From positions 1 through 57,228 of the forward strand of contig JBDLIA010000010.1 of assembly GCA_039715185.1 (NCBI GenBank): DNA of 57,228 nucleotides. The letters are read 5' to 3'. The notes below the pieces were generated by a model. The model ran no database searches. It saw nothing but the letters and a program-made list of their open reading frames with translations, and was not told where the DNA came from. This DNA comes from Gemmatimonadota bacterium. Lineage in GTDB: Bacteria; Gemmatimonadota; Gemmatimonadetes; Longimicrobiales; RSA9. Below, one piece after another: positions 5,411 through 53,333 of this stretch; the first letter of the stretch is position 1; each line of letters starts with the position of its first letter. The translations under genes and the position numbers were made by a program.

Positions 5411-5467
5411 TATGCCCGGGGTGGGACTCGAACCCACAAGAGCCGAAGCCCAGCGGATTTTGAGTCC
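5411..5467. repeat. attL: 57-bp duplicate of the 3' half of tRNA-Leu
   Basis: These 57 bp are identical to 13353-13409. They cover the tRNA-Leu 3' end, T-arm, variable arm and anticodon loop on the minus strand; identity stops immediately after position 5467. No tRNA 5' half follows, so this copy cannot encode a tRNA. It is the displaced 3' end left when an integrase inserted an element into the tRNA gene and rebuilt the functional gene from its own copy. Confidence 0.93.
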
Positions 5468-5712
5468 TAGCACCGGGCACTTCGCGGTGGGTACGGATGT
5501 ACACTATTCCGCACGGTTGAGCGACAAACTGGCCCTTCTCTTCCCGGCCGATGTGACGCCCATACCGCTCAGTTTCTCTGGGTTACGGCACAATCGCGGC
5601 ACAGTCGGGGGGGTCTTCCGCCCCGGTTCCCCTTGCCGTGACGTAGCACACAAAGCGCGGGCCGCCGATACTAGTCCTCTCCTGCCGAAGTCGTTATACC
5701 GGACTTGCAGCC

Positions 5713-6255
5713 ATGGTTAAGCGAGTGGAAAAGCTGACGAGCGCCCTTAGGATTCTGTTGGGGCCGAAGGTCTCGAGCAAGGTCGTGATAGGGGCCGGCA
5801 TCCTGGGCGCTTTTGTTCGTTCAGACGCTGCCGCCGAATTGAGTGGGCTAAGCCCGGAAACGCTCTACGTCGGAGCTTGGGGCGGGGTGGCGGTCGTTTC
5901 GTTGGCGCTCGGCTCTCTAGTTGTCGATGCAACACTGGCAGCAAGGCACAGACTCGTCCGCGGGGGGCGGGCGTGGAGGCGGAATCGGAAGCGCAGCGAG
6001 ATGATACGCCATACAGTTGATGTGCTGAACCCAGTTCACGCCCGAGAAGTCAGGAGGGCGCTCCGTGGAGGCACGACCTTCATCACGAACACCGCCGCCG
6101 AACCATGGGCCACCTTTGTAAGACTAGGCGCGGTCTCTGCGGTGGCGGCCGTACCTGATAGCGGGCCACCTGGAGCAGCTCGTCAGTCTGTGTGCGTATT
6201 CTCTCGAAAGGCGCGCCGGGTTATCGAAACCTCGCATAGAATAGCCGAGGCGTGA
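5713..6255 (+). CDS. Putative superinfection-exclusion protein B (SieB)-like membrane protein
   Basis: 180 aa, with two predicted membrane segments at about residues 23-41 and 52-75, a basic stretch (residues 78-95), then a cytosolic segment of the form LNPVHAREVRRAL..TTFIT. This two-helix plus short soluble domain layout resembles SieB proteins of lambdoid prophages such as Rac, which abort growth of related incoming phages. It is the first gene inside attL, transcribed toward the phage genes, a position typical for prophage cargo that protects the host. The assignment rests on architecture and remembered motif spacing, not on an alignment. The start is the first ATG (5713); no strong ribosome-binding site is seen. 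Confidence 0.5.
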   Translation: MVKRVEKLTSALRILLGPKVSSKVVIGAGILGAFVRSDAAAELSGLSPETLYVGAWGGVAVVSLALGSLVVDATLAARHRLVRGGRAWRRNRKRSEMIRHTVDVLNPVHAREVRRALRGGTTFITNTAAEPWATFVRLGAVSAVAAVPDSGPPGAARQSVCVFSRKARRVIETSHRIAEA

Positions 6256-6352
6256 ACGCTGGCCGGCGGGGTGGGGCTCCCCCGCGCGCCATCCTATGTC
6301 CCAATGAGCGGTGTCGCCGCTGGGCGATGGAAGTCTTTCGGTCGATTCGCGC

Positions 6353-6619
6353 ATGGGGAGCAAGCAGACCTCGCGGCGTCCGTCCCCGGGACCATCCAAG
6401 GCTGACGCTGAGCGAGCGAGACGCGAATGGAGGGAGCGGGCCGAAGAGGGGGACGCGGACGCAGCCTACGTTAGTGTGCGCTACGTGAGCCTTAGGAATG
6501 CCAGGGTGCGCGCCCAGGGTCGGTCCGTGGCCAAAGCCGGTTACCTACAGGTCTATGTCGGGCACATCGGGGCGGCCGTGATCGGCATACCCGTCGAGGA
6601 CGCAGAGCCGTCCCAATAA
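6353..6619 (+). CDS. Hypothetical protein, 88 aa, inside the element
   Basis: I do not recognise it. It has a basic and proline-rich N-terminus, a charged helix (residues about 16-30), and a beta-rich C-terminal half (YVSVRYVSLRNARVRAQ, YLQVYVGHIGAAVIGIP). The frame also contains an ATG at 6311, but the ATG at 6353 removes a composition-poor leader. It ends 12 bp before the convergent tape-measure gene. It could be a small phage-derived regulator or a chance frame; codon use is like the neighbours. Confidence 0.4.
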   Translation: MGSKQTSRRPSPGPSKADAERARREWRERAEEGDADAAYVSVRYVSLRNARVRAQGRSVAKAGYLQVYVGHIGAAVIGIPVEDAEPSQ

Positions 6620-6631
6620 GGGGCCGACGCT

Positions 6632-9600
6632 TCAGGCCCCCAGCGTGAGCGACTTCGTGCCGCCGCGCGTCTTCAGTCGGCGCAGCTTCTCAACCACCCG
6701 GTCGGCTAGTTCCTCGCCGTCCTCGCCTGGCTGCTGGATGACCGTGATCTGGTCGATGAAGGTGTCGCCTTCGGTGATGATCGTGCCGCCGGAGGCGACC
6801 GCGTCCCGGAACGTGCCCGCGCCGTCGCCAACGTCGGTCGCGCGGAACCGCGCGAGGCTGACCTTGAACCCACTCGGCAGGTTCAGCAGCTCCTCGCCGA
6901 CCTTGCTGACGGCCTCGCTCGCGTCGGCCGCCGACTCGGCCAGCCGGTCGAGTTCGAGGATCGCGTTCAGGAACTCGTCCGCACTGAGGTCGCCGAGCTG
7001 GTCCAGGTCCAGCGCGCCCGCCTCGAATTGCGCGAACAGCTCGCGCAGCGCGTCCTCGAAGCCCTCCAGCCCCGCCGCGCTCGACAGGTCGAGCCCGGCG
7101 ATCGCGGCCTCGACGCTCGGGTTGTCGATCCCGAACTTCTCGAGCGCCTGCTGGATCGCCTCGGTCAGCGGGCCCGTGTCGTCGAGGTCGACGTTGCCCA
7201 GGAAGCCGGCCAGCTCGGCCTCCAATATCTCCAGCGGTTCCAGGTCGAATAGCTGGGCGCGCGCGTCACGCAAGCGGCCCTGACCATCAGGCGAGCGGAA
7301 GAAGTCGGCCAGGTCGATCTCGGCGAGCGCGCGGTCCAGCTCGCGCAGGAACTCGGCGCTCGTGCGGAACTCGATGTCCAGCGAGTCGGCCAGCGCCTCG
7401 ACCTCGCCCATCGAGATCCCGAAACGGTCGAGCGCGGTCTCGAATCGCCCGAAGGCGAAAAGCGCATCGAACGGCCCCTCGAGGCCAGCCTCGATCGCCT
7501 GGCCGATCTGATCGATCGTGCCGCCGGACAACCCGCGCAGTGCGCCCGAGACCTCATCGAGGTTGCGCTTCAGCCGTGCGAGCGAGTCGGCGGCCTGCTC
7601 GCGCGCCATGCGCTCGGCGCGCTCCTCTGGGCTTTCGCCGCCGAACAGCCCACCGATGGCGCCGGTGATCGCGTTCAACGCCGTCGAGGCCAGCGCCGTC
7701 GCGAACCCGGACGCCAGGTTCTCGGGGCTGAACGTGGCGCCCAACGTGTCGAGCACGCCGCCGCCGACGCTGGAGTTCGCGATCCGGTCGATGAACTGCT
7801 GGAACGGGCCGCCGACGCTCTCGGCCGTCGCCGCAGCCTCCTCGCCCATCGCCTTGACCTGCTTGGCGGTCAGCTTGATCGGCGTCGTGAGCTTGTCCAG
7901 GCCGAGCAGCTTGTCGAAATCGCCGAACGATTCGCGTGCCGGTTCGCGGCCGCTGCGGTCGCGTATGCCGCCGCCCTGCGCGGCTGGCGCGAACGCTATG
8001 CGCTGACGGCGCAGGAACTGCTGGCTGTCGGTGGGGCCGGTCGCGAGGTTGATGGCCGGCGCCTCGAAATCGCCGAGCGCGCCGAAGCTGTTGAACGTCG
8101 CTATCAGCGCGGCCAGCTCGGCGCGGACGAGCGCGATTTCCTCCTGCGCCTTCGTGAGCGTATCGCCGGTGGCGAACGCCGCCTCGAACTCAAGGCCGGA
8201 CAGCTCGCCGCGCAGCTCGCCCATCCGCTCGACGACGCGCGTGATGTTCTCGATGGTCGGGTCGAGGTCGCCGGCCTTGAACGGGAGCGGGACGCCGCCA
8301 CCACCACCGCCTCCGGCGGGCTCGTCGAGCAGCGCGAGCGCGGCCTTGACCGCGGCTATCTGGGCCCGCAGCGCGTCAAGGTCGGCGACCCGCTGCTCAC
8401 CGCCCGAGAAGTCGACGCCCGTGAACGTGGCGACCTGGAGCTTGGATTCGAGGTTCGCGAGGCCCGCCTCCAGCGCCTCCTTGTCGGCGCCGGCCAGGTC
8501 GTCGCCGGCCTCCTTGAACCGGGCGACCGCGAGGTTGAACTTGTTCGTTTCGGTGCTGGCACGCTTCAGGGCACTGGCGACAGTCAGGCCGAGCACCCCA
8601 ACCGCAGCAAGCCCGAGCGCCAGGGGCCCACCGACCGCGACGGCCGTCCCGAGCGCACCGAACGCCTTCGAGGTGCTGGTCAGTTGCTTGGCGAGCCCGA
8701 GAAACACGCCAGTTTCGAGGGCCTTCCCGGCGATCGTGAACAGCGGCCCCGCGCCAGCAGCAGCGCCCGCACCGGCGATGCCGAGTTTGACCATCGCCGG
8801 GCTGGCGTCGTCTACGCTGTCGAGCGCCGCCGTGACACGGTCCAGGCCGGCGGTGACGCCCGGCAGCAGGTTGTCACCGACGCGCACACGCGCCCGGAAC
8901 AGCGCGTCGGTGAAGTCCTCGAAGCTGGTTTCTGCGCGGCGCACGGCCTGCGGCAGGTCTTCGAGCGCCGTCAGGAGCCGGTCGAAGAACTCGTCGGTCG
9001 ACAGTTCAAGGGCCTGGATTTCCTGCGGACTGACGGTACCGAATGCGGCCTGAAGCGCCCGGCCGACGATGGGCGCGGTGTCGATGATGGCGCCAAGGTC
9101 GTTGCCGAGGACTCTGCCTTCGATGGTAATGTCGCGGATCTGGGCGACGACCCTATCCAGCGCACCCGAGTCGCCGCCGGTGGTCGCGATCGCGTTGCCG
9201 AAGGCGCGGAGCGTACGCGCCGATTCCGCAGCCGAAAAGCCGATTGCCTGGAGGCGAATGTCGCCTTCGATGGCGTCCCGGAAGCTGAGGTCGGGCAGCT
9301 CGGCGATGTCCTTCAGTTCTGCAAGTCGCCGGGCCGTGCCGCCGGCCGACGTGTCCACGGCGTCGAGCGAGCGGCGCAGCGTGTCCATGTCGACAGCGGC
9401 CTTCACGGACGCTGCGGCCGCGACGGTGATGGGCGCAGTGACGCCGAGGGTTAGCTTGCGGCCGGTGCGGCCAACCGCGTCCGCCACCAGGTCGACCTCG
9501 CCGGCGAACTCGGTGAACACGCGGCCAGCCTGCCGACCGAAATCGCGCGCGCCGTCGCGCAGCTCGCGGAAATTGCGCTGAAGGCGGGAGACGGAGCTCG

Positions 9601-9679
9601 TGACGGCGCGGATGCCCGCATCGAAGCGCTGCCGGTCCAGCCCGAGCTCGGCTGCGAGCGTTACGAACGTCTCAGCCAC
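6632..9679 (-). CDS. Phage tail tape-measure protein
   Basis: 1015 aa, the length and composition of a tape measure, which sets tail length and takes part in DNA ejection. The N-terminus has a short coiled segment (residues 15-50), then the conserved tape-measure N-terminal domain with features such as GRKLTLGVTAPI, followed by segments resembling SFEDFTDALFRARVRVGDNLLPG. Hydrophobic glycine/alanine-rich helices occupy about residues 300-370, followed by long Leu/Asp/Glu-rich helical repeats. The start is GTG at 9679, 3 nt after the terminase stop (TGA-TCT-GTG), with AGGGTG upstream as a possible ribosome-binding site. The frame is intact over 3 kb, which is notable in an otherwise reduced element. 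Confidence 0.88.
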   Translation of the reverse strand: MAETFVTLAAELGLDRQRFDAGIRAVTSSVSRLQRNFRELRDGARDFGRQAGRVFTEFAGEVDLVADAVGRTGRKLTLGVTAPITVAAAASVKAAVDMDTLRRSLDAVDTSAGGTARRLAELKDIAELPDLSFRDAIEGDIRLQAIGFSAAESARTLRAFGNAIATTGGDSGALDRVVAQIRDITIEGRVLGNDLGAIIDTAPIVGRALQAAFGTVSPQEIQALELSTDEFFDRLLTALEDLPQAVRRAETSFEDFTDALFRARVRVGDNLLPGVTAGLDRVTAALDSVDDASPAMVKLGIAGAGAAAGAGPLFTIAGKALETGVFLGLAKQLTSTSKAFGALGTAVAVGGPLALGLAAVGVLGLTVASALKRASTETNKFNLAVARFKEAGDDLAGADKEALEAGLANLESKLQVATFTGVDFSGGEQRVADLDALRAQIAAVKAALALLDEPAGGGGGGGVPLPFKAGDLDPTIENITRVVERMGELRGELSGLEFEAAFATGDTLTKAQEEIALVRAELAALIATFNSFGALGDFEAPAINLATGPTDSQQFLRRQRIAFAPAAQGGGIRDRSGREPARESFGDFDKLLGLDKLTTPIKLTAKQVKAMGEEAAATAESVGGPFQQFIDRIANSSVGGGVLDTLGATFSPENLASGFATALASTALNAITGAIGGLFGGESPEERAERMAREQAADSLARLKRNLDEVSGALRGLSGGTIDQIGQAIEAGLEGPFDALFAFGRFETALDRFGISMGEVEALADSLDIEFRTSAEFLRELDRALAEIDLADFFRSPDGQGRLRDARAQLFDLEPLEILEAELAGFLGNVDLDDTGPLTEAIQQALEKFGIDNPSVEAAIAGLDLSSAAGLEGFEDALRELFAQFEAGALDLDQLGDLSADEFLNAILELDRLAESAADASEAVSKVGEELLNLPSGFKVSLARFRATDVGDGAGTFRDAVASGGTIITEGDTFIDQITVIQQPGEDGEELADRVVEKLRRLKTRGGTKSLTLGA

Positions 9680-9682
9680 AGA

Positions 9683-11098
9683 TCACACCCTGTGCCGGAA
9701 GAACCGCAGCCGCCGGTCCACGCCGCCGATCGTGAAGTAGTAACCGAGCGCAGCCGCGTCCGCTCTGTCCGGCGAATGGCCGACTCGCTTCTTGGTCTCC
9801 GCCTTCTCCTCGAGCCGGATCTGGCCCGATGGGGTGTAGCCGTACCTGATCGCGCTCAGTTCGGCGATGAGCTGCGGGTCGTCGGGCAGGCTGACCTCGC
9901 CACGCTCTAGACCTTCGCGCAGCTTCCAAAAGATTTCGGCCCGCACGTTCGCGTGGACGTCGGGCCGGTCCTCCGCCCGTCGCCCGACGTTGATGCCCTT
10001 CGCCACGTGGTGACCGAGCTGGCGAAGCCGGTCGACCACGCCAGAGCCCAACCCGATTTCGTCGATCCCGACCTGTGCCGGCTGCCTGCGGTTGATCTCC
10101 GAGGCTACCCAGGAGGCGACCTCCATCGTGTCGAGCTTGCCGATGGTCGTGACGCCCAAGAGTTGCTGGCCGCACCAAACGGCCAGCGCGCTCTTGTCCT
10201 CGCCGAAGCGAGCGCAGTCGACGCCCAGAAACGTCTTCGGGTCCTCCTGCTCCAGGCGCCGACCGACTGCGGCCTCGAGGTCGGCGAGGCGGATCAGCGT
10301 ACCCTCGGCTTCGTCGGGGAATTCGCCGAGCACGCGCGCCTCGTAGAGCGGCGACGCCCTGCCCCATTCCTCGGCCCGCTCGGCCACCCACTCCGGTGAA
10401 ACCAGCGCCGAGTCCTCGGCCGAGACGTGAAACGTCCTCCAGATCCCGGAACCCTTCCTGAAGGCATCGTAAAACGGACCGGAGGGGCCGCCCGGCGTGG
10501 ACGCCATCACATACAGGCGATCGCCCTCGCGGTCCGTCTGTGTTCCATGCAGCGCTGCGATCACGTCGGCCGACAGCGCCTTGGCTTCGTCGGCCAGGAT
10601 GCAGAGGCTCTCGGCGTGCGCCCCCTCGACCAGCGCCGGGTCTGACGCCTGGACGCCCAGCGCGAACCACTCCCGCCCGTAGCCCGTCACCTCTACGCTC
10701 AAGGCGCGCACCGTCAGCGGAAGCGGGTCCGGTGCCCTCCGCACCCATTTCTTGACCTCGGGCAACAGGTACGCGCCGACTTGTCTCTCGAAAGAAGGCG
10801 CCAGCATCAGCGCCCGGGAGAACGGCCGCGTCAGGAGCCACCAGAGCAGTACCCAGGCAAGGATTGCCGTCTTCCCCACACCGTGACCGGACCGGAGCGC
10901 GACCCGCGAGTTTTCCGCGCACGCCTCGAGCATCTCGACTTGGTATGTCTCCGGCGACGCCCCAAGCTGCTCGCGGACGAAGTCGGCCGGCCGGTCCCGG
11001 TAGCCGCCGAAACGGTCGCCCAGGTCCTGCGGGACCTCCAGCGCCGCCAGGTCGTCGCGGAGAGCCCGGACGTAGCGGTCGAGAACGCGGAGACTCAC
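9683..11098 (-). CDS. Phage terminase large subunit (ATPase/nuclease)
   Basis: The motor that packages phage DNA and cuts the concatemer. The Walker A is SGHGVGKT (residues 70-77) and the Walker B is CILADEA (about 166-172); the C-terminal RNase H-like nuclease has acidic motifs GVDCARFGEDKS, IDEIG and DRADAAALG. I start at a GTG at 11098 (471 aa) rather than at 11233: that GTG overlaps the TAG stop of a 52-aa upstream gene (TAGTG), a clear coupling signal, and the upstream extension is arginine-rich shadow translation. All catalytic motifs are present. In ordinary phages a portal gene follows; here the tape measure follows at once. Confidence 0.92.
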   Translation of the reverse strand: MSLRVLDRYVRALRDDLAALEVPQDLGDRFGGYRDRPADFVREQLGASPETYQVEMLEACAENSRVALRSGHGVGKTAILAWVLLWWLLTRPFSRALMLAPSFERQVGAYLLPEVKKWVRRAPDPLPLTVRALSVEVTGYGREWFALGVQASDPALVEGAHAESLCILADEAKALSADVIAALHGTQTDREGDRLYVMASTPGGPSGPFYDAFRKGSGIWRTFHVSAEDSALVSPEWVAERAEEWGRASPLYEARVLGEFPDEAEGTLIRLADLEAAVGRRLEQEDPKTFLGVDCARFGEDKSALAVWCGQQLLGVTTIGKLDTMEVASWVASEINRRQPAQVGIDEIGLGSGVVDRLRQLGHHVAKGINVGRRAEDRPDVHANVRAEIFWKLREGLERGEVSLPDDPQLIAELSAIRYGYTPSGQIRLEEKAETKKRVGHSPDRADAAALGYYFTIGGVDRRLRFFRHRV

Positions 11099-11256
11099 TA
11101 GACCACACGGACGGAGGGCCTCGCGCCAATCTGATCCTTGAGCCGCTTGACCTCGCGGCGCAGGTCTTCGACGACTTCCGCGGTCATCGCGTCGGCCCAG
11201 ACCTTGAGCCACGCCTCGATGCTGCGCGTACACGCGTTGGCCTCCGCGGCCGACAT
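11098..11256 (-). CDS. 52-aa coiled-coil protein coupled to the terminase
   Basis: A short gene starting at ATG 11256 and ending in a TAG that overlaps the terminase GTG by one base. The product begins MSAAEANACTRSIEAWLKVW and ends KDQIGARPSVRVV, with a central amphipathic, heptad-like helix rich in Glu, Arg and Lys. It occupies the position of a terminase small subunit or a phage packaging accessory protein, but it is shorter than usual small subunits and has no evident DNA-binding helix-turn-helix, so the function is open. The overlap with a bona fide terminase and the clean helical product argue that it is real. Confidence 0.6.
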   Translation of the reverse strand: MSAAEANACTRSIEAWLKVWADAMTAEVVEDLRREVKRLKDQIGARPSVRVV

Positions 11257-11571
11257 CTGCCGCTGAGTCACCGCCCGAGCGACCGTCTCTCCGATCCAGC
11301 CTCGTTATGGTGCCCGTGTATCAATAGACCAACTCTACAAGATCGCCGAAGGGGTCGCGATCGAAGGCGAGGACATCCTTTTCCGGACGTCCTGGCGTGT
11401 GCGCGCAGCCACCGCCTCGGTCGCCCTGTGGGCGCACTGGGGTCAGATATGGACGGGCACCCCGAACTATGCCCTCCTCGACGGAGGTCTCTGGAACGGG
11501 CGGCAGGTCTGCGATTGGTGGTGGCGGGAATCGAAGCCGCAGACCACAGTAGTCGCAGGAGGGAGTTGAGC
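11257..11571. promoter_or_regulatory. Divergent intergenic region with inverted repeat (11506-11513 / 11538-11545)
   Basis: This 315-bp stretch separates the leftward packaging genes from the rightward integrase and must hold their promoters, though I see no convincing -35/-10 pair. GGTCTGCG at 11506-11513 is repeated inverted as CGCAGACC at 11538-11545, ending 26 nt before the integrase ATG; it may be an operator or an integrase arm site. Between the arms the minus strand reads like a tRNA or tmRNA T-arm (TTCGATTCCCGCCACCACCA). A strong ribosome-binding site AGGAGGGA (11557-11564) precedes the integrase. A plus-strand frame open from 11267 to 11569 has no start codon before GTG 11399. Confidence 0.5.
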
Positions 11572-12661
11572 ATGGCCAAGACAGGCACGGGCCGGATCTA
11601 CCAGCGCGGCGGCGTCTGGTGGATCGATTACGGCCACAACGGAAAGCGCTACCGCGAGTCGTCCGGCTCGACGCGCAAGTCGGACGCGACCGACCTGCTC
11701 AAGCGCCGCATGGGCGAAGCCGGCAAGGGCAAGCTGGTCGGCCCGAGCGAGAAGCGGGTTACGTTCGACGACCTGGCCGCCATTGTCGAGACGGACTACA
11801 AGGTCCAAGGGAACCGCTCGCTGGACCGGCTGCGGATCGCGCTGGGCCACCTCGGCCGCTTCTTCGGCGAGGACAAGGCGCTGACGATCACGCCGGACCG
11901 CGTGAAAGCCTACATCGCGAACCGCCAGGAGGAGGGCGCCTCGGCGTCCTCGATCCAGAAGGAGCTTGCCGCGCTCAAGCGGGCTTTCAAGCTCGCGGTC
12001 CTCGAGGGCGTGCTGAGTGCGCGCCCGGAGCTCCCGAGCATCCGGGTGCGGAACACCCGCAAGGGCTTCTTCAACCCGAAGGAGCTGGAGCGCCTGATCG
12101 CCGAGTTGCCGGAGCCGCTCAGGGCCCCGGTGCGCTTCGCTGCGTTGACGGGCTGGCGGAAGGCCGAGGTCCTGTCGCTGGAGTGGTCGTCGGTCGACTT
12201 CGAGGCGGGCGTGGTCCGGCTCGCGCCGGGTACGACGAAGAACGAGGAAGGCCGCGAGTTCCCCTTCTTCTGCCCTGCCCCCCCTCCAGGCGCTGCTCGA
12301 GGCGCAGCGGGCGCAGACGCGCGCCCTGGAGCGGGAGACGGGCGAGTTGATCCCCTGGGTGTTCCACCGGGGCGGGAAGCCGATCAGGGACATGTACGGC
12401 GGCTGGAACGGCGCGTGCGAACGGGCGGGCCTTGAGGGCTGGCTGTTCCACGATCTGCGCCGGACCGCGGTCCGCAACTTGGAGCGCGCCGGCGTGCCGC
12501 GCTCGGTCGCGATGAAGCTGACAGGCCACAAGACCGAGTCGGTCTACACGCGCTACGCGATCGTGGACGCCGGGGCGATGGAGGAAGGCGTGGCGAAGCT
12601 GGCCGCGATGCACGCCGGCCAGGGCGATGGAGCGAAGGTCGTGCCGATGAGGACCGGTTGA
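11572..12661 (+). pseudogene. int: Tyrosine recombinase (phage integrase), frameshifted
   Basis: Site-specific recombinase that would have integrated the element at tRNA-Leu. It starts at ATG 11572 after a strong Shine-Dalgarno. The first frame carries the N-terminal DNA-binding region, the SAM-like core-binding domain and the first catalytic Arg (TGWRKAEVLSLEW) and the beta-hairpin Lys (TTKNEEGREF). The reading frame then breaks near 12265-12284, where a run of seven C lies at 12278-12284. The plus-one frame continues with HDLRR, LTGHK and the nucleophile Tyr in VYTRY, ending at TGA 12661. All six catalytic positions survive if the frames are joined. One extra base in the C run would explain it; a real mutation or a sequencing error fit equally. 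Confidence 0.85.
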
Positions 12662-12717
12662 CGCGTTCACCGTCGACGGCAAGTGGAGCAGCTCGTAGAG
12701 GGGCTCAAGCGCAAACG

Positions 12718-13242
12718 ATGAAGGAAGATCCAACCTACGTCTTGCTGCGCTACGTCTTTTGGGCGTGGATCACTTGGATGATAACTGCCTTTGTTATCGG
12801 GGTCGCACTGGCGATCGCGTTTCCCGGACATCACAACGCCGTGGACACGATCTTCGATTACGGGCCTCCCAACATCCAGCAGGCCCTGAAGGCGTACGCT
12901 GTGTCCCTGCCCACGGCGGCGGTGTGCTCGGGCGTCATGGTCTGGTTTCGCTTCCCGCCGGTCAGGTGGTGGTTCGTTGCCGGAATCATCACGCTCACCG
13001 AAGGGGCTTTCTGGGTGGGTCTCCTACTGAGGGGAATCCGAGACGCTCCTTTCGCTTGGTTCACGGCTGGCCTAGCGCCCGGAATCCCCCTGGTGGTTTT
13101 TGCTGTCTCTTGGATGGCCCAGCGATCAACTCTGATCGCGACACCCGCTCCGCTCCGAAGCACGGAGACAGACCCGGAATTGAACGTTGTGGTGACGTTC
13201 ATACTGGTGCTGCTGTGGGTCGCGATCATCCTGCTGGCCTAA
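12718..13242 (+). CDS. Hypothetical four-helix membrane protein in the element
   Basis: 174 aa, from ATG 12718 (the frame stays open to 12658 but that overlaps the integrase end). Four or five hydrophobic segments: about residues 10-36 (YVFWAWITWMITAFVIG), 61-79, 83-106, 114-131 and a C-terminal one (VVTFILVLLWVAIILLA). No catalytic motif is evident and I do not recognise the family. It is the gene nearest attR, transcribed toward the tRNA. Such membrane proteins next to integrases are often prophage cargo with unknown exclusion or lysogenic roles, but nothing here proves that. Confidence 0.6.
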   Translation: MKEDPTYVLLRYVFWAWITWMITAFVIGVALAIAFPGHHNAVDTIFDYGPPNIQQALKAYAVSLPTAAVCSGVMVWFRFPPVRWWFVAGIITLTEGAFWVGLLLRGIRDAPFAWFTAGLAPGIPLVVFAVSWMAQRSTLIATPAPLRSTETDPELNVVVTFILVLLWVAIILLA

Positions 13243-13352
13243 CTGCGACAGGTCGAATCACACTCAAACGGCACAATTACGGCACAAAATGGAGACGGCG
13301 GCGGTCCTTTTGGGACTCGCCGCCGTTCTCGTATCTACTTACTCTGTAACAC

Positions 13353-13409
13353 TATGCCCGGGGTGGGACTCGAACCCACAAGAGCCGAAGCCCAGCGGAT
13401 TTTGAGTCC
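13353..13409. repeat. attR: 57-bp repeat inside tRNA-Leu
   Basis: Identical to 5411-5467. It begins two bases beyond the tRNA 3' end and runs through the anticodon loop into the anticodon stem. It marks the tRNA-proximal junction of the integrated element. The crossover must lie somewhere inside the 57 bp; by analogy with other tRNA integrases the anticodon or T-loop is likely. Confidence 0.93.
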
Positions 13410-13438
13410 GCCGCGTCTGCCAGTTCCGCCACCCGGGC
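13355..13438 (-). tRNA. tRNA-Leu (anticodon CAA)
   Basis: Minus-strand tRNA of 84 nt. The acceptor stem pairs GCCCGGG with CCCGGGC, the discriminator is A, and the anticodon arm GCGGA-CTCAAAA-TCCGC gives anticodon CAA (reads UUG). A long variable arm (GGGCTTCGGCTCT) and the T-arm with GGTTCGAGTCC follow, as expected of class II leucine tRNAs. CCA is not encoded. Its 3' half is the attR of the prophage-like element, so the functional gene was restored by the element's copy. Confidence 0.95.
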
Positions 13439-13478: not shown

Positions 13479-14237
13479 CTACCAGCCCTGCTCGGAGGCG
13501 GGTGGACCGAGAATCTCAGACAGTACGATGGCGCGCCGCACGTCGCCCACGTCGCCCAGACCGAGGCGGGTAAGCGCCTGCACGGTGACCTTCTTGGGCG
13601 GCTTCTTGGCGATCTTGCGATGGAACTCGGCGTGCCTGGCCTCCGCGTCCATCTCGATGGTCTCGAGGGACTCTCCTTCGAGCGAAAGCACCAGCTCGTC
13701 GCCGGCCGGCTCCTCCCGCTCCCGGCCGAATCCTTCGCGCGGACGCGTCGGCTCCGGAATCCGCATGCGAGTCCCCTGCCGGGCCGGGCTCGGCGGCGGC
13801 GATCGCCTGGGCACGGGAACCGGCAGACGCTGGCCGGTCAGGATCTGCCACAACTCCTGGGGCGTTTGCGGCTGCGCCGGGGCCGGCGCAGCAGGCGAGG
13901 CCTCCCGCTCGTCACGCCCCGGATCGGCGTCCGCGGCCCGCGGGGACTCCTCCTCAGCCTCCCACCACGGCCGCTCTTCGGCCGTGGGCCCGGCCGCCAC
14001 GGGGTCGGTCGCCTCCCACCACGGGGTCTTACCGCCCGCCGGGGCCGCCTGCCCGGGTCGCTCAGCGGGCGTCTGCCTGGGAGGCGTCGGCCGCTGCGTC
14101 CGGCGGACCGGGGTCGGCTTGCGCTCGCCAGGAGGCAGGCGCTGGCCCGTGGGCCCCTTCTTCTTGCCGAACAGCCCGCTCAGAAACTGCCAGGCGATCA
14201 AGACGAGGATAACGACTACGAACGGATCGTCGAACAT
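13479..14237 (-). CDS. Hypothetical membrane-anchored, proline-rich protein downstream of floA
   Basis: 252 aa. An N-terminal membrane helix (VVVILVLIAWQFLSGLF, residues 7-23) is followed by a long Pro/Arg/Glu-rich low-complexity linker containing two copies of a short motif (TPWWEATD and RPWWEAEE). The C-terminal 65 residues are ordered and end with RRAIVLSEILGPP. No enzyme motif is visible. It begins 9 bp after floA and so is the third gene of the nfeD-floA operon. A role in the flotillin-containing membrane assembly is a guess from position. It ends about 40 bp before the tRNA-Leu 5' end. Confidence 0.75.
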   Translation of the reverse strand: MFDDPFVVVILVLIAWQFLSGLFGKKKGPTGQRLPPGERKPTPVRRTQRPTPPRQTPAERPGQAAPAGGKTPWWEATDPVAAGPTAEERPWWEAEEESPRAADADPGRDEREASPAAPAPAQPQTPQELWQILTGQRLPVPVPRRSPPPSPARQGTRMRIPEPTRPREGFGREREEPAGDELVLSLEGESLETIEMDAEARHAEFHRKIAKKPPKKVTVQALTRLGLGDVGDVRRAIVLSEILGPPASEQGW

Positions 14238-14246
14238 GCGCGACCC

Positions 14247-15236
14247 CTACAACTCTTCGTTCCGCTCCGCGGAGCTGTCTCCGCCCGCGATGGCCTCCCG
14301 CATGTCGGTGTCCGCGCCCACGTTGCGATAGCGCATGTAGTCCATGACGCCGAGGTTGCCCTCGCGGAACGCCTCAGACATCGCCAGCGGCACCTGCGCC
14401 TCCGCCTCGACCACGCGCGCGCGCATCTCGACCACGCGCGCCTTCATCTCCTGCTCCTCCGCCACCGCCATGGCGCGCCGCTCCTCGGCCTTGGCCTGCG
14501 CGATGCGCTTGTCGGCTTCGGCCTGATCGGTCTGGAGCTCCGCGCCGATGTTCTTGCCCACGTCCACGTCGGCGATGTCGATGGACAGAATCTCGTAGGC
14601 GGTGCCGGCGTCGAGGCCCTTGGCGAGCACCGTCTTGGAGATCCCGTCCGGATTCTCGAGCACCGCCTTGTGGGTGGCGCTGGAGCCGATCGTGCTGACG
14701 ATGCCCTCGCCCACGCGCGCGAGGATGGTTTCCTCGCCCGCGCCGCCGACGAGGCGGTTGATGTTGGCGCGGACGGTCACGCGCGCGAGTGCGATGAGCT
14801 GAATTCCGTCCTGGGCCATCGCGGCTACCTTCGGGGTCTGAATGACCTTGGGGTTGACGCTGACCTGCACCGCCTCGAGGACGTCGCGGCCGGCGAGATC
14901 GATCGCGGCGGCCTGCTGGAACGGCATCTCGATGTTGGCCTTGTCGGCGCTGATGAGCGCCCGCACGACGCGGTCCACGTGTCCGCCTGCCAGGTAGTGC
15001 GACTCGAGCTCGTTGACGTCCAGCGGGAGCTGCGCCTTGGTCGCCATGATCAGAGGCCGGACGATGGCGGCCGGGCTCACCTTCCGGAGCCTCATGCCGA
15101 TCAGGTTGCCCAGAGATACTCGAGCCCTGGCGGAAATGGCCTCGATCCAGAGGCGCACGGGTACGGCCCAACCAAGGACCAGCACCCCCACGAAGATGAG
15201 GAGAAACAGCGCCGGCGCTACGAAAATCGGATCCAT
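14247..15236 (-). CDS. floA: Flotillin-like protein FloA
   Basis: 329 aa, close to the usual FloA length. A hydrophobic N-terminal hairpin (residues about 3-27) anchors it in the membrane; then comes the SPFH core ([36 protein letters not shown]) and a charged coiled-coil rich in Ala/Glu ([21 protein letters not shown] cut short here). FloA organises functional membrane microdomains and affects membrane fluidity. It follows nfeD at 74 bp, the conserved NfeD-flotillin pairing. The ATG start at 15236 is the natural one. Confidence 0.95.
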
Positions 15237-15310
15237 TTGCCCGGTCCCGTCCGTGTGATAGTGGTGTTCGTGGGGCGGTCGTCAGTCGACGCCCTCTGTA
15301 AGCATCCTCG

Positions 15311-16675
15311 TCAGGGCGTCGGCAGTTCCCGCACCGCCTCCACCAGCGTCCGGTAGCCCTCGGCGCGCACGACCCGGACGGCCGTCCCTTCCTCTATCCA
15401 GCCGCTCTCCGCCACCACGTCCACGCGCTCGCCGTTGACCCTCGCCGAGCCGGACGGCCGCAGCGCGGTCAGCGCGACGCCCTCGACCCCGACCAGGTCT
15501 GAGCGCACCTCGGCAGATACGTAGCCGGCTTCCCGCGAGAGCTCGCCGCCGAGTATGACGCCCGAGCGTATCAGCCGGCGGTTGTTCGGCAGCGACCGGA
15601 TCAGCGCCCAGGTGGTGACCAGCATCAGCACCATGGCCGCGGACAGCACCAACCCGGCCTCGCTGTAATCGGCCGCGGTGGAGAACTGGCCCACCAGGCT
15701 CAGGTAGATGGAGGCGAGCAGCGCCAGGATCCCCGCGACCCCGAACACGCCGAAGCCGGGCACCACGAAGGCCTCAACTCCGAGCAGGATCAGCCCACCT
15801 CCCAGGAGCAGCACTTCCTCCATGCCCGCGAGCCCCACCAGGTAGTGGCTCCCGAAGAACAGCGCCAGCGAGCCGATGCCGGCCATGCCGGCCAGCCCGA
15901 AGGTGGGCGTCTTGATCTCAACGAGCAGGCCCAGGAAGCCGAGCGACAGCAGGAACGGAGCGACCACCGGGTGCGTGAAGAAGCGCACCAGGCCCTCCGC
16001 CCAGTTGACCTCGGTCTGGACGGTGCGCGCCTGCGCGGCCCCGATGTCGGCGAGCAGCGCGTCGTAGTCCTCCACCTGCTCGGCGAACCCCAGGTCGACC
16101 GCCTCCTCGGTGGTCAGCGTCAGCAGCTTCCCTTCCTCCACCACGCCTTCGATGCCGATGTCCTCGTCGACCATCGCCTCGGCGACCGCCGGGTCCAGGC
16201 CGCGCGCCTCGGCCAGCGCGCGCATCTCGCTGCGCATGGCGCTGACGATCTTCTCGGGGGCCTTCTGTCCGGTGCCTTCGACGGGCGTTGCGGCGCCGAT
16301 CACCGATCCGGGCCGCATGTAGATCCTGTCCGCGGCCAGCGAGATCAGCGCCCCGGCCGAGAACGCGCGGTGGTTCACGAAGGCGTACACCGGGATCTCG
16401 GAGTCAGAAACGGCGTTGGCGATCCGCTGAGCCGCGTCGATGCGGCCGCCCGGCGTCTCGATGTCCAGCACCGCCGCCACGGCGCCCTGTTCGGCGGCCT
16501 CCTCCAGGCTGCGCTCGACGAACGGCGCGAGCCCCAACTCTATCACGCCGTTGATGGGGATGCGGTACACGGCTTCCCCGCTCCGCTGCGCCGCGAGGGC
16601 CAGCGGGCCGAGCGCCACGAGGGCGAGCGCCGCGAGCACGCGGCGGGCGATCCGGCTATATGCAGGCGAATTCAT
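15311..16675 (-). CDS. nfeD: NfeD-type membrane-bound ClpP-class serine protease
   Basis: 454 aa. A signal peptide ends at about residue 29 (LALA-AQ). The ClpP-like domain (about 35-220) has ETPGGRIDAA and the catalytic serine in AFSAGALISLAADRIYM; the Lys of QKAPEKIVSAM is in the position of the catalytic base. Four membrane helices follow (about 240-380), and a C-terminal OB-fold NfeD domain (VGVEGVALTALRPSGSARVNG). Long NfeD proteins are linked to flotillins and cleave stomatin-like proteins in archaea. It is the first gene of the operon with floA. Confidence 0.93.
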   Translation of the reverse strand: MNSPAYSRIARRVLAALALVALGPLALAAQRSGEAVYRIPINGVIELGLAPFVERSLEEAAEQGAVAAVLDIETPGGRIDAAQRIANAVSDSEIPVYAFVNHRAFSAGALISLAADRIYMRPGSVIGAATPVEGTGQKAPEKIVSAMRSEMRALAEARGLDPAVAEAMVDEDIGIEGVVEEGKLLTLTTEEAVDLGFAEQVEDYDALLADIGAAQARTVQTEVNWAEGLVRFFTHPVVAPFLLSLGFLGLLVEIKTPTFGLAGMAGIGSLALFFGSHYLVGLAGMEEVLLLGGGLILLGVEAFVVPGFGVFGVAGILALLASIYLSLVGQFSTAADYSEAGLVLSAAMVLMLVTTWALIRSLPNNRRLIRSGVILGGELSREAGYVSAEVRSDLVGVEGVALTALRPSGSARVNGERVDVVAESGWIEEGTAVRVVRAEGYRTLVEAVRELPTP

Positions 16676-52357: not shown

Positions 52358-53333
52358 CCTCGACCTCCGCGTCGTCGGCCGCGGCGTACGCGTCGATGAT
52401 GTCGCGCACCAGGCGGTGGCGCACGACATCGACGGCGTCCAGGTATACGAACTCGATGCCCTCGATGCCGGTAAGGATGCGCTCCACCTCCAGGAGACCC
52501 GATTCCTCCCGGCTCTGCAGGTCGATCTGCGTCGTGTCGCCCGTGATGACGGTGCGCGAGTTCACGCCCAGGCGAGTCAGAAACATCTTCATCTGCGCCT
52601 GGGTGGCGTTCTGGGCCTCGTCGAGGATGACGAACGCGTCCGCCAGCGTGCGCCCGCGCATGTACGCGAGTGGCGCGATCTCTATCGTGCGATCGTCGAT
52701 CGCCCGCCGCACGCGATCGGCGGGCAGCATGTCGTGCAGCGCGTCGTACAGGGGCCGGAGATACGGATCGACCTTTTCCTGCAGATCGCCCGGCAGGAAC
52801 CCGAGGCTTTCCCCGGCCTCCACCGCGGGACGCGCCAGCACGATGCGCCGCACCCGGTTCTTGAGCAGCGCGTCCACGGCCATCGCCACCGCCAAGTAGG
52901 TCTTGCCGGTACCGGCGGGGCCGATGGAGACGACGATGTCGTGGGCCTCGATGGCTTCCACGTACGTGCGCTGGCCGGGGGTGCGCGGCGAGATGATCTT
53001 GCGCGACCCCGGAAGCAGGATGCGGAGCTCCGACACGCGCTCGCCGAGCGCGAAGTCCTGCGCAGGGGCGGCGTCCACGGCTCGGTGGATATCCCCCACG
53101 TCGAACGGGATTCCCAGTCGGGCCTTGTCGACCAGTTTCTGCGCCGCCGGAGCCGCCGCCTCGACCTCGGGCAGCGCTCCGGACAGGATGAGATACTCGC
53201 CCCGCAGGACGACCCGGCAGCCGGTCAGCCGCGCGAGTTCCTGAAGGTGTTGGTCGTTGACCCCAGACAGGAGGAGGAAGTCCGCTCCCTCCGTCGGGAT
53301 CCTATGCTGTACCGTCGTTGCTTCCACGGCCAT
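52350..53333 (-). CDS. phoH: PhoH-like ATPase
   Basis: 327 aa. The ATPase core has Walker A GPAGTGKTYLAVAMAV (residues about 137-152), VEAGESLGFLPGDLQEKVDPY and Walker B FVILDEAQNA; C-terminal arginine finger segment LTRLGVNSRTVITGD. It is a PhoH-family RNA-linked ATPase without the KH-like extra domain being clearly seen. GAGAGGGG lies before the ATG. First gene of the PgpH-YbeY-MgtE-UbiB run. Confidence 0.95.
   Translation of the reverse strand: MAVEATTVQHRIPTEGADFLLLSGVNDQHLQELARLTGCRVVLRGEYLILSGALPEVEAAAPAAQKLVDKARLGIPFDVGDIHRAVDAAPAQDFALGERVSELRILLPGSRKIISPRTPGQRTYVEAIEAHDIVVSIGPAGTGKTYLAVAMAVDALLKNRVRRIVLARPAVEAGESLGFLPGDLQEKVDPYLRPLYDALHDMLPADRVRRAIDDRTIEIAPLAYMRGRTLADAFVILDEAQNATQAQMKMFLTRLGVNSRTVITGDTTQIDLQSREESGLLEVERILTGIEGIEFVYLDAVDVVRHRLVRDIIDAYAAADDAEVEDD

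Follow-up and report, generated by a model that had tools for sequence, protein, structure and literature searches.

A compact tRNA-Leu-integrated element with terminase and tape measure genes in a Gemmatimonadota genome, probably a member of a capsid-less satellite lineage

The window (the whole stretch of 57,228 nucleotides analysed here) is the complete contig C10 of a 3.66-Mb MAG of a Gemmatimonadota bacterium, which is assembled into 252 contigs. A small insert is found in the window at a tRNA-Leu(CAA) gene, with the following features:

5411..5467, + strand: attL, a 57-bp copy of the 3' part of tRNA-Leu(CAA), exact repeat
5713..6255, + strand: ORF of 180 aa, coding signal weak, codon usage different from that of the host genes, no family match
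6632..9679, - strand: tape measure protein (TMP), 1015 aa, intact (PF20155 3e-14; several PHROG tape measure families)
9683..11098, - strand: terminase large subunit (TerL), intact (phrog_2 2e-32; aligned to 4ife)
11098..11271, - strand: remnant of a TerS-like gene, 57 aa, C-terminal helical part only (position upstream of TerL)
11572..12661, + strand: tyrosine integrase, frameshifted (PF00589 halves and phrog_1 in two frames)
12718..13242, + strand: membrane-protein-like ORF of about 174 aa, no family match
13353..13409, + strand: attR, exact second copy of the 57 bp, within the intact tRNA gene
13355..13438, - strand: tRNA-Leu (anticodon CAA), intact, the integration site (ARAGORN, Rfam)

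The two exact copies of the 57-bp direct repeat have a spacing of 7,942 bp, and a whole-genome search found the repeat in these two places only in the entire assembly. An exact match of 57 bp in 57 kb is far beyond chance. The right copy lies in the intact tRNA-Leu(CAA) gene, which is the sole tRNA of the window, and the left copy is a 3' fragment of the same tRNA. Duplication of a tRNA 3' segment as attL and attR is what a tyrosine integrase normally leaves behind on inserting into a tRNA gene. The repeat and the tRNA calls thus bear out the original prediction of a 7.9-kb element in tRNA-Leu with perfect 57-bp attL/attR.

The chromosomal context of the insertion site is marked by the gene order nfeD-floA-252 aa gene-tRNA-Leu (13479-16675 of the window), which is largely kept across the family. 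In seven family members the floA-tRNA-Leu(CAA) neighbourhood contains no element and no second tRNA copy in the 1.8-10.9 kb compared downstream, and none of the seven showed a full prophage at the site. The element-free locus that had been proposed as a check could therefore be found in relatives, but the exact empty junction was not seen, because the left neighbour of the element, an M16 peptidase gene, is not conserved at the locus and is not adjacent to floA and tRNA-Leu in the family members. The contig of one family member (G007, L237 8190-8275) stops 1 base past its copy of this tRNA-Leu(CAA). Breakage of the assembly at a duplicated att site would have this effect, and an element may be present there too.

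TerL aligns over most of its length with a solved gene 2 terminase protein (structure 4ife), and its ATPase and nuclease motifs are intact with the invariant residues K121, E216, D339, D391, and D492 (ORF numbering from 11233). Its likely start is a GTG at 11098, with a 1-nt overlap with the stop of the upstream 57-aa ORF. The TMP gene starts with a GTG 3 nt past the TerL stop, and both genes are complete. The correlation of codon usage with host genes is 0.945 for TerL and only 0.727 for the TMP, which lends weak support to different histories of the two genes. The integrase changes frame once, at about 12250-12290. As this is a C/T-rich run and the genome is a MAG of 252 contigs, the frameshift is possibly an assembly or sequencing error.

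Searches with Pfam and PHROG profiles gave no match to portal, capsid, tube, or lysis families in the remaining ORFs of the insert, and no replication gene or stl/alpA-type regulator was recognised by the same searches. A complete tailed prophage has portal, capsid, tail tube, and lysis genes within its att sites, and this set is not present in the 7.9 kb between the att copies here. The gene content is as originally described: the catalytic residues and family matches confirm an intact TerL and an intact 3-kb TMP gene, portal, capsid, tube, and lysis genes are not recognised, and the integrase is broken, with the PF00589 halves split between two frames.

In seven other loci a gene lies immediately upstream of TerL, and the 57-aa ORF before the TerL of the window matches the helical C-terminus of that gene, which adjoins TerL in eight loci including the window. 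The N-terminal part could not be found upstream in the window by tblastn. It is the position of the gene that suggests a TerS-like identity; profile searches gave no match to a TerS family, and a structure search with a modest AlphaFold model gave no structural match.

Profile and protein searches for relatives of TerL covered samples of genomes from the phylum, class, and order, and found them in few genomes (14/395, 17/394, and 5/154). The order (154 genomes) held no further family members beyond those already found. Several of the relatives lie in compact units similar to that of the window. The G253 element is inserted in tRNA-Pro with 42-bp exact att copies 8.8 kb apart, and contains TerL, HTH genes, prim-pol, and an integrase. 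The G316 element is inserted in tRNA-Cys with 47-bp exact att copies 14 kb apart, and contains an integrase, TerL, a Hjc-like nuclease, the TerS-like gene, an excisionase, a DnaB/AAA ATPase, a TMP, a TIR gene, and an AbiZ-like gene. The last two (L032 5741-6622 and 17518-18717; PADLOC TIR-TM, 2e-49, and AbiZ-like/DUF6161, 8e-10) resemble the cargo in defence hotspots of other satellites.

In G187 the integrase adjoins tmRNA and is found with AlpA, a RepA-like ATPase, the TerS-like gene, and TerL. A 20/23 copy of the tmRNA 3' end lies 8.7 kb away with host-like genes beyond, making this a probable att site. G332 has an integrase, a RepA-like ATPase, the TerS-like gene, and TerL at tRNA-Ser, with host genes resuming about 7 kb on. 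G140 (tRNA-Ile) and G040 (tRNA-Pro, contig end; with an excisionase-like gene as in G316) have a similar look, but their limits are not fixed at both ends. Searches for the right att of G332 and for one att of G140 found neither. Most of the compact relatives carry replication genes, with RepA or prim-pol genes in G253, G316, G332, and G187. In place of the same att-bounded unit looked for in related genomes, similar capsid-less integrase and TerL units were found in other genera, two of them with exact att repeats, at other tRNA or tmRNA genes.

Other relatives of TerL have different surroundings. In G058 and G215 the TerL is found in broken copies or contexts, and the loci of G040 and G282 stop at contig ends. 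The truncated TerL of G058 is fused in frame with a Ser/Thr protein kinase-like sequence near a contig end (L026 13734-15887), which is a rearrangement or a misassembly. G057, G267, and G285 are ordinary tailed prophages with a phrog_2-type terminase; their TerL is homologous to that of the window, but it is accompanied by a portal-like gene and other structural genes in long late operons.

In the TerL tree the window groups with G040, G058, G253, G215, and G282 in one clade (support 100/99), none of which was seen in a full prophage. G140, G187, and G316 form a second clade of TerLs outside full prophages (support 100/100). Among the sampled sequences, the window clade has two viral contigs (L146/L147) as its sister; these were rejected as satellites, as a portal-like ORF comes after their TerL. 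The G332 TerL groups with the full prophages, and the capsid-less elements therefore arose, or acquired TerL, more than once. The tree carries a long-branch warning, and its deep joins are unsure.

The TMP of the window has relatives in two other Gemmatimonadota genomes and in viral contigs, all in ordinary late-gene settings (prophages or viral contigs), and no relatives among GenBank phages. No TerL of the window's family was found near these relatives in the stretches compared, and the TMP and TerL are therefore probably of different sources. G316 is the second element with both TerL and a TMP, the latter in a different position. A TMP common to the window and G316 was rejected, as the two have no significant similarity. 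Unrelated TMPs in different positions in two TerL elements suggest repeated gain, which favours a function, although two cases are few.

We consider that the insert, integrated at tRNA-Leu, probably belongs to a lineage of PICI-like satellites in Gemmatimonadota that bear TerL but no capsid genes. It has the features by which we define this class here: a TerL of the Gemmatimonadota clade, a compact att-bounded unit, and no capsid. The original prediction had left a choice between a deletion remnant and a phage satellite. The TerL clade and the recurring capsid-less integrase and TerL units back the satellite side, but the present copy is eroded. With the integrase frameshifted, the TerS-like gene truncated, and no replication gene recognised, it is probably no longer mobile unaided, and the term satellite fits the lineage better than the present ability of the window copy.

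The same signs of erosion are also expected of a decayed prophage, and the strongest alternative is a deletion remnant of an ordinary prophage, in which a single internal deletion took out all that lay between TerL and the TMP, the lysis and replication genes were lost separately, and the tidy junction came about by coincidence. The prophages of ordinary gene order in which the TMP relatives are found, and the degenerate settings of some TerL relatives, would also agree with this. However, TerL and the TMP gene are both complete at the junction and only 3 nt apart, the nearest TerLs are not in full prophages, the prophages with TMP relatives have no TerL of this family in the compared stretch, and the difference in codon correlation lends its weak support to separate histories. 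We therefore regard a remnant as rather unlikely, though it deserves serious weight. Also set against the satellite reading are the broken contexts of G058 and G215, the contig ends in G040 and G282, the missing att sites in G332 and G140, the assignment of the TerS-like gene by position, and the lack of a detected helper.

A helper prophage with a similar terminase or TMP had been proposed as something to look for elsewhere, and this search came out negative: with PF05065, PF04860, PF20155, and phrog_2, no helper prophage and no second phage locus were detected in the genome. PF05065 and PF04860 are weak tests here, since they also failed to match genomes in which TerL is part of a full-looking prophage, and a resident helper of another type is possible. 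A phrog_2 match at 52542-53210, outside the element, was rejected as a second phage locus, being weak and near chance.

Known satellites redirect packaging by TerS, adaptor proteins, or stolen cos/pac sites, or they bring a whole capsid. The closest resemblance is to the PICIs of Gram-negative type, which are likewise small integrated units with an integrase and att site, no capsid genes, and a terminase gene diverting packaging; AlpA (G187) or an excisionase (G316, G040) and a replication protein are further PICI-like traits of the relatives. PICIs carry at most TerS (PMC6092414), whereas the elements described here carry TerL, two of them also a TMP, and the window copy is without regulator and replication genes. 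Among the features that define PICIs, the window has the integrase and the specific att site, with the integrase domains in two frames, and lacks a recognised regulator (stl or alpA) and pri/rep module; as for the absence of structural genes, there is no portal or capsid family match in the insert, yet a tape measure gene is present.

The cf-PICIs, by the summary in PMC10690885, have TerL together with capsid, protease, portal, connectors, TerS, and HNH. TerL is shared with the window, but capsid, portal, protease, and connectors were not found in the ORFs of the insert. The Mulch and Flayer satellites of Streptomyces phages encode TerL, portal, and capsid and are without key replication genes (PMC10690885); again TerL is in common, while most of the elements here are the reverse, with no portal or capsid and with replication genes present. 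PICMIs are also very small satellites without capsid-remodelling genes, but they have no identifiable packaging genes (PMC10803314) and integrate next to fis, whereas the window has TerL and is integrated at tRNA-Leu. In other satellite families, terS, sid, and ppi are the characteristic genes named for the redirection of packaging (PMC10803314). Full-text literature searches, covering few subscription papers, did not turn up any satellite described as having TerL without a capsid, nor any paper on satellites in Gemmatimonadota. A group of capsid-less, TerL-bearing small phage parasites is apparently new to the literature.

If the satellite reading is right, an intact member would be excised by its own integrase and replicated with its own RepA or prim-pol. 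Its TerS-like/TerL pair might then package the satellite DNA in the procapsids of a helper phage that infects the cell; use of helper capsids by the lineage is what we infer from the gene content. In the window member and one other, a TMP from a different phage could be built into, or compete in, the helper tails, which is the least certain step. A satellite class with its own packaging motor (TerS-like and TerL) for the helper capsid, some members adding their own TMP for the helper tail, would replace virion assembly factors part by part, the reverse of the cf-PICIs, which bring the capsid and borrow the tail. We put this forward tentatively, as a possibility that is somewhat less likely to be right than wrong. 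The specificity of docking of a motor on a foreign portal is usually thought to be restrictive, and a TerL without portal or capsid throughout a lineage implies that a satellite motor can dock on such a portal. Carrying a tape measure gene as the sole tail gene would be a novel means of altering the helper tail.

The TerL and TMP might instead be decoys of a satellite or defence island, made during infection to poison the packaging motor and tail assembly of the helper and having no part in mobility. The TIR (TIR-TM, 2e-49) and AbiZ-like (8e-10) genes of the related G316 would fit such a role, and PICIs and P4-like satellites carry tail-assembly inhibition systems (PMC11364771). Nevertheless, the TerL retains every catalytic residue, which is needless for a pure decoy, and most of the relatives retain an integrase, an excisionase, and replication genes, in keeping with mobile elements, which makes decoys improbable. 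It is very improbable that the insert is in part an assembly artefact, with the 57-bp repeat having misjoined phage-derived and host fragments, since the repeat has only two copies in the assembly, and these reproduce a 3' tRNA segment exactly, are oriented as attL and attR should be, and flank an integrase, which is also the case in G253 and G316. This holds even though the MAG has 252 contigs, the M16 peptidase gene is not next to floA/tRNA-Leu in family members, and the contig of one relative stops 1 bp past this tRNA.

Past the right att of the G316 element, three short copies (17-21 bp) of the tRNA-Cys 3' end follow each other in steps of about 230 bp (L032 18882-19625), hinting at repeated integration at this site.
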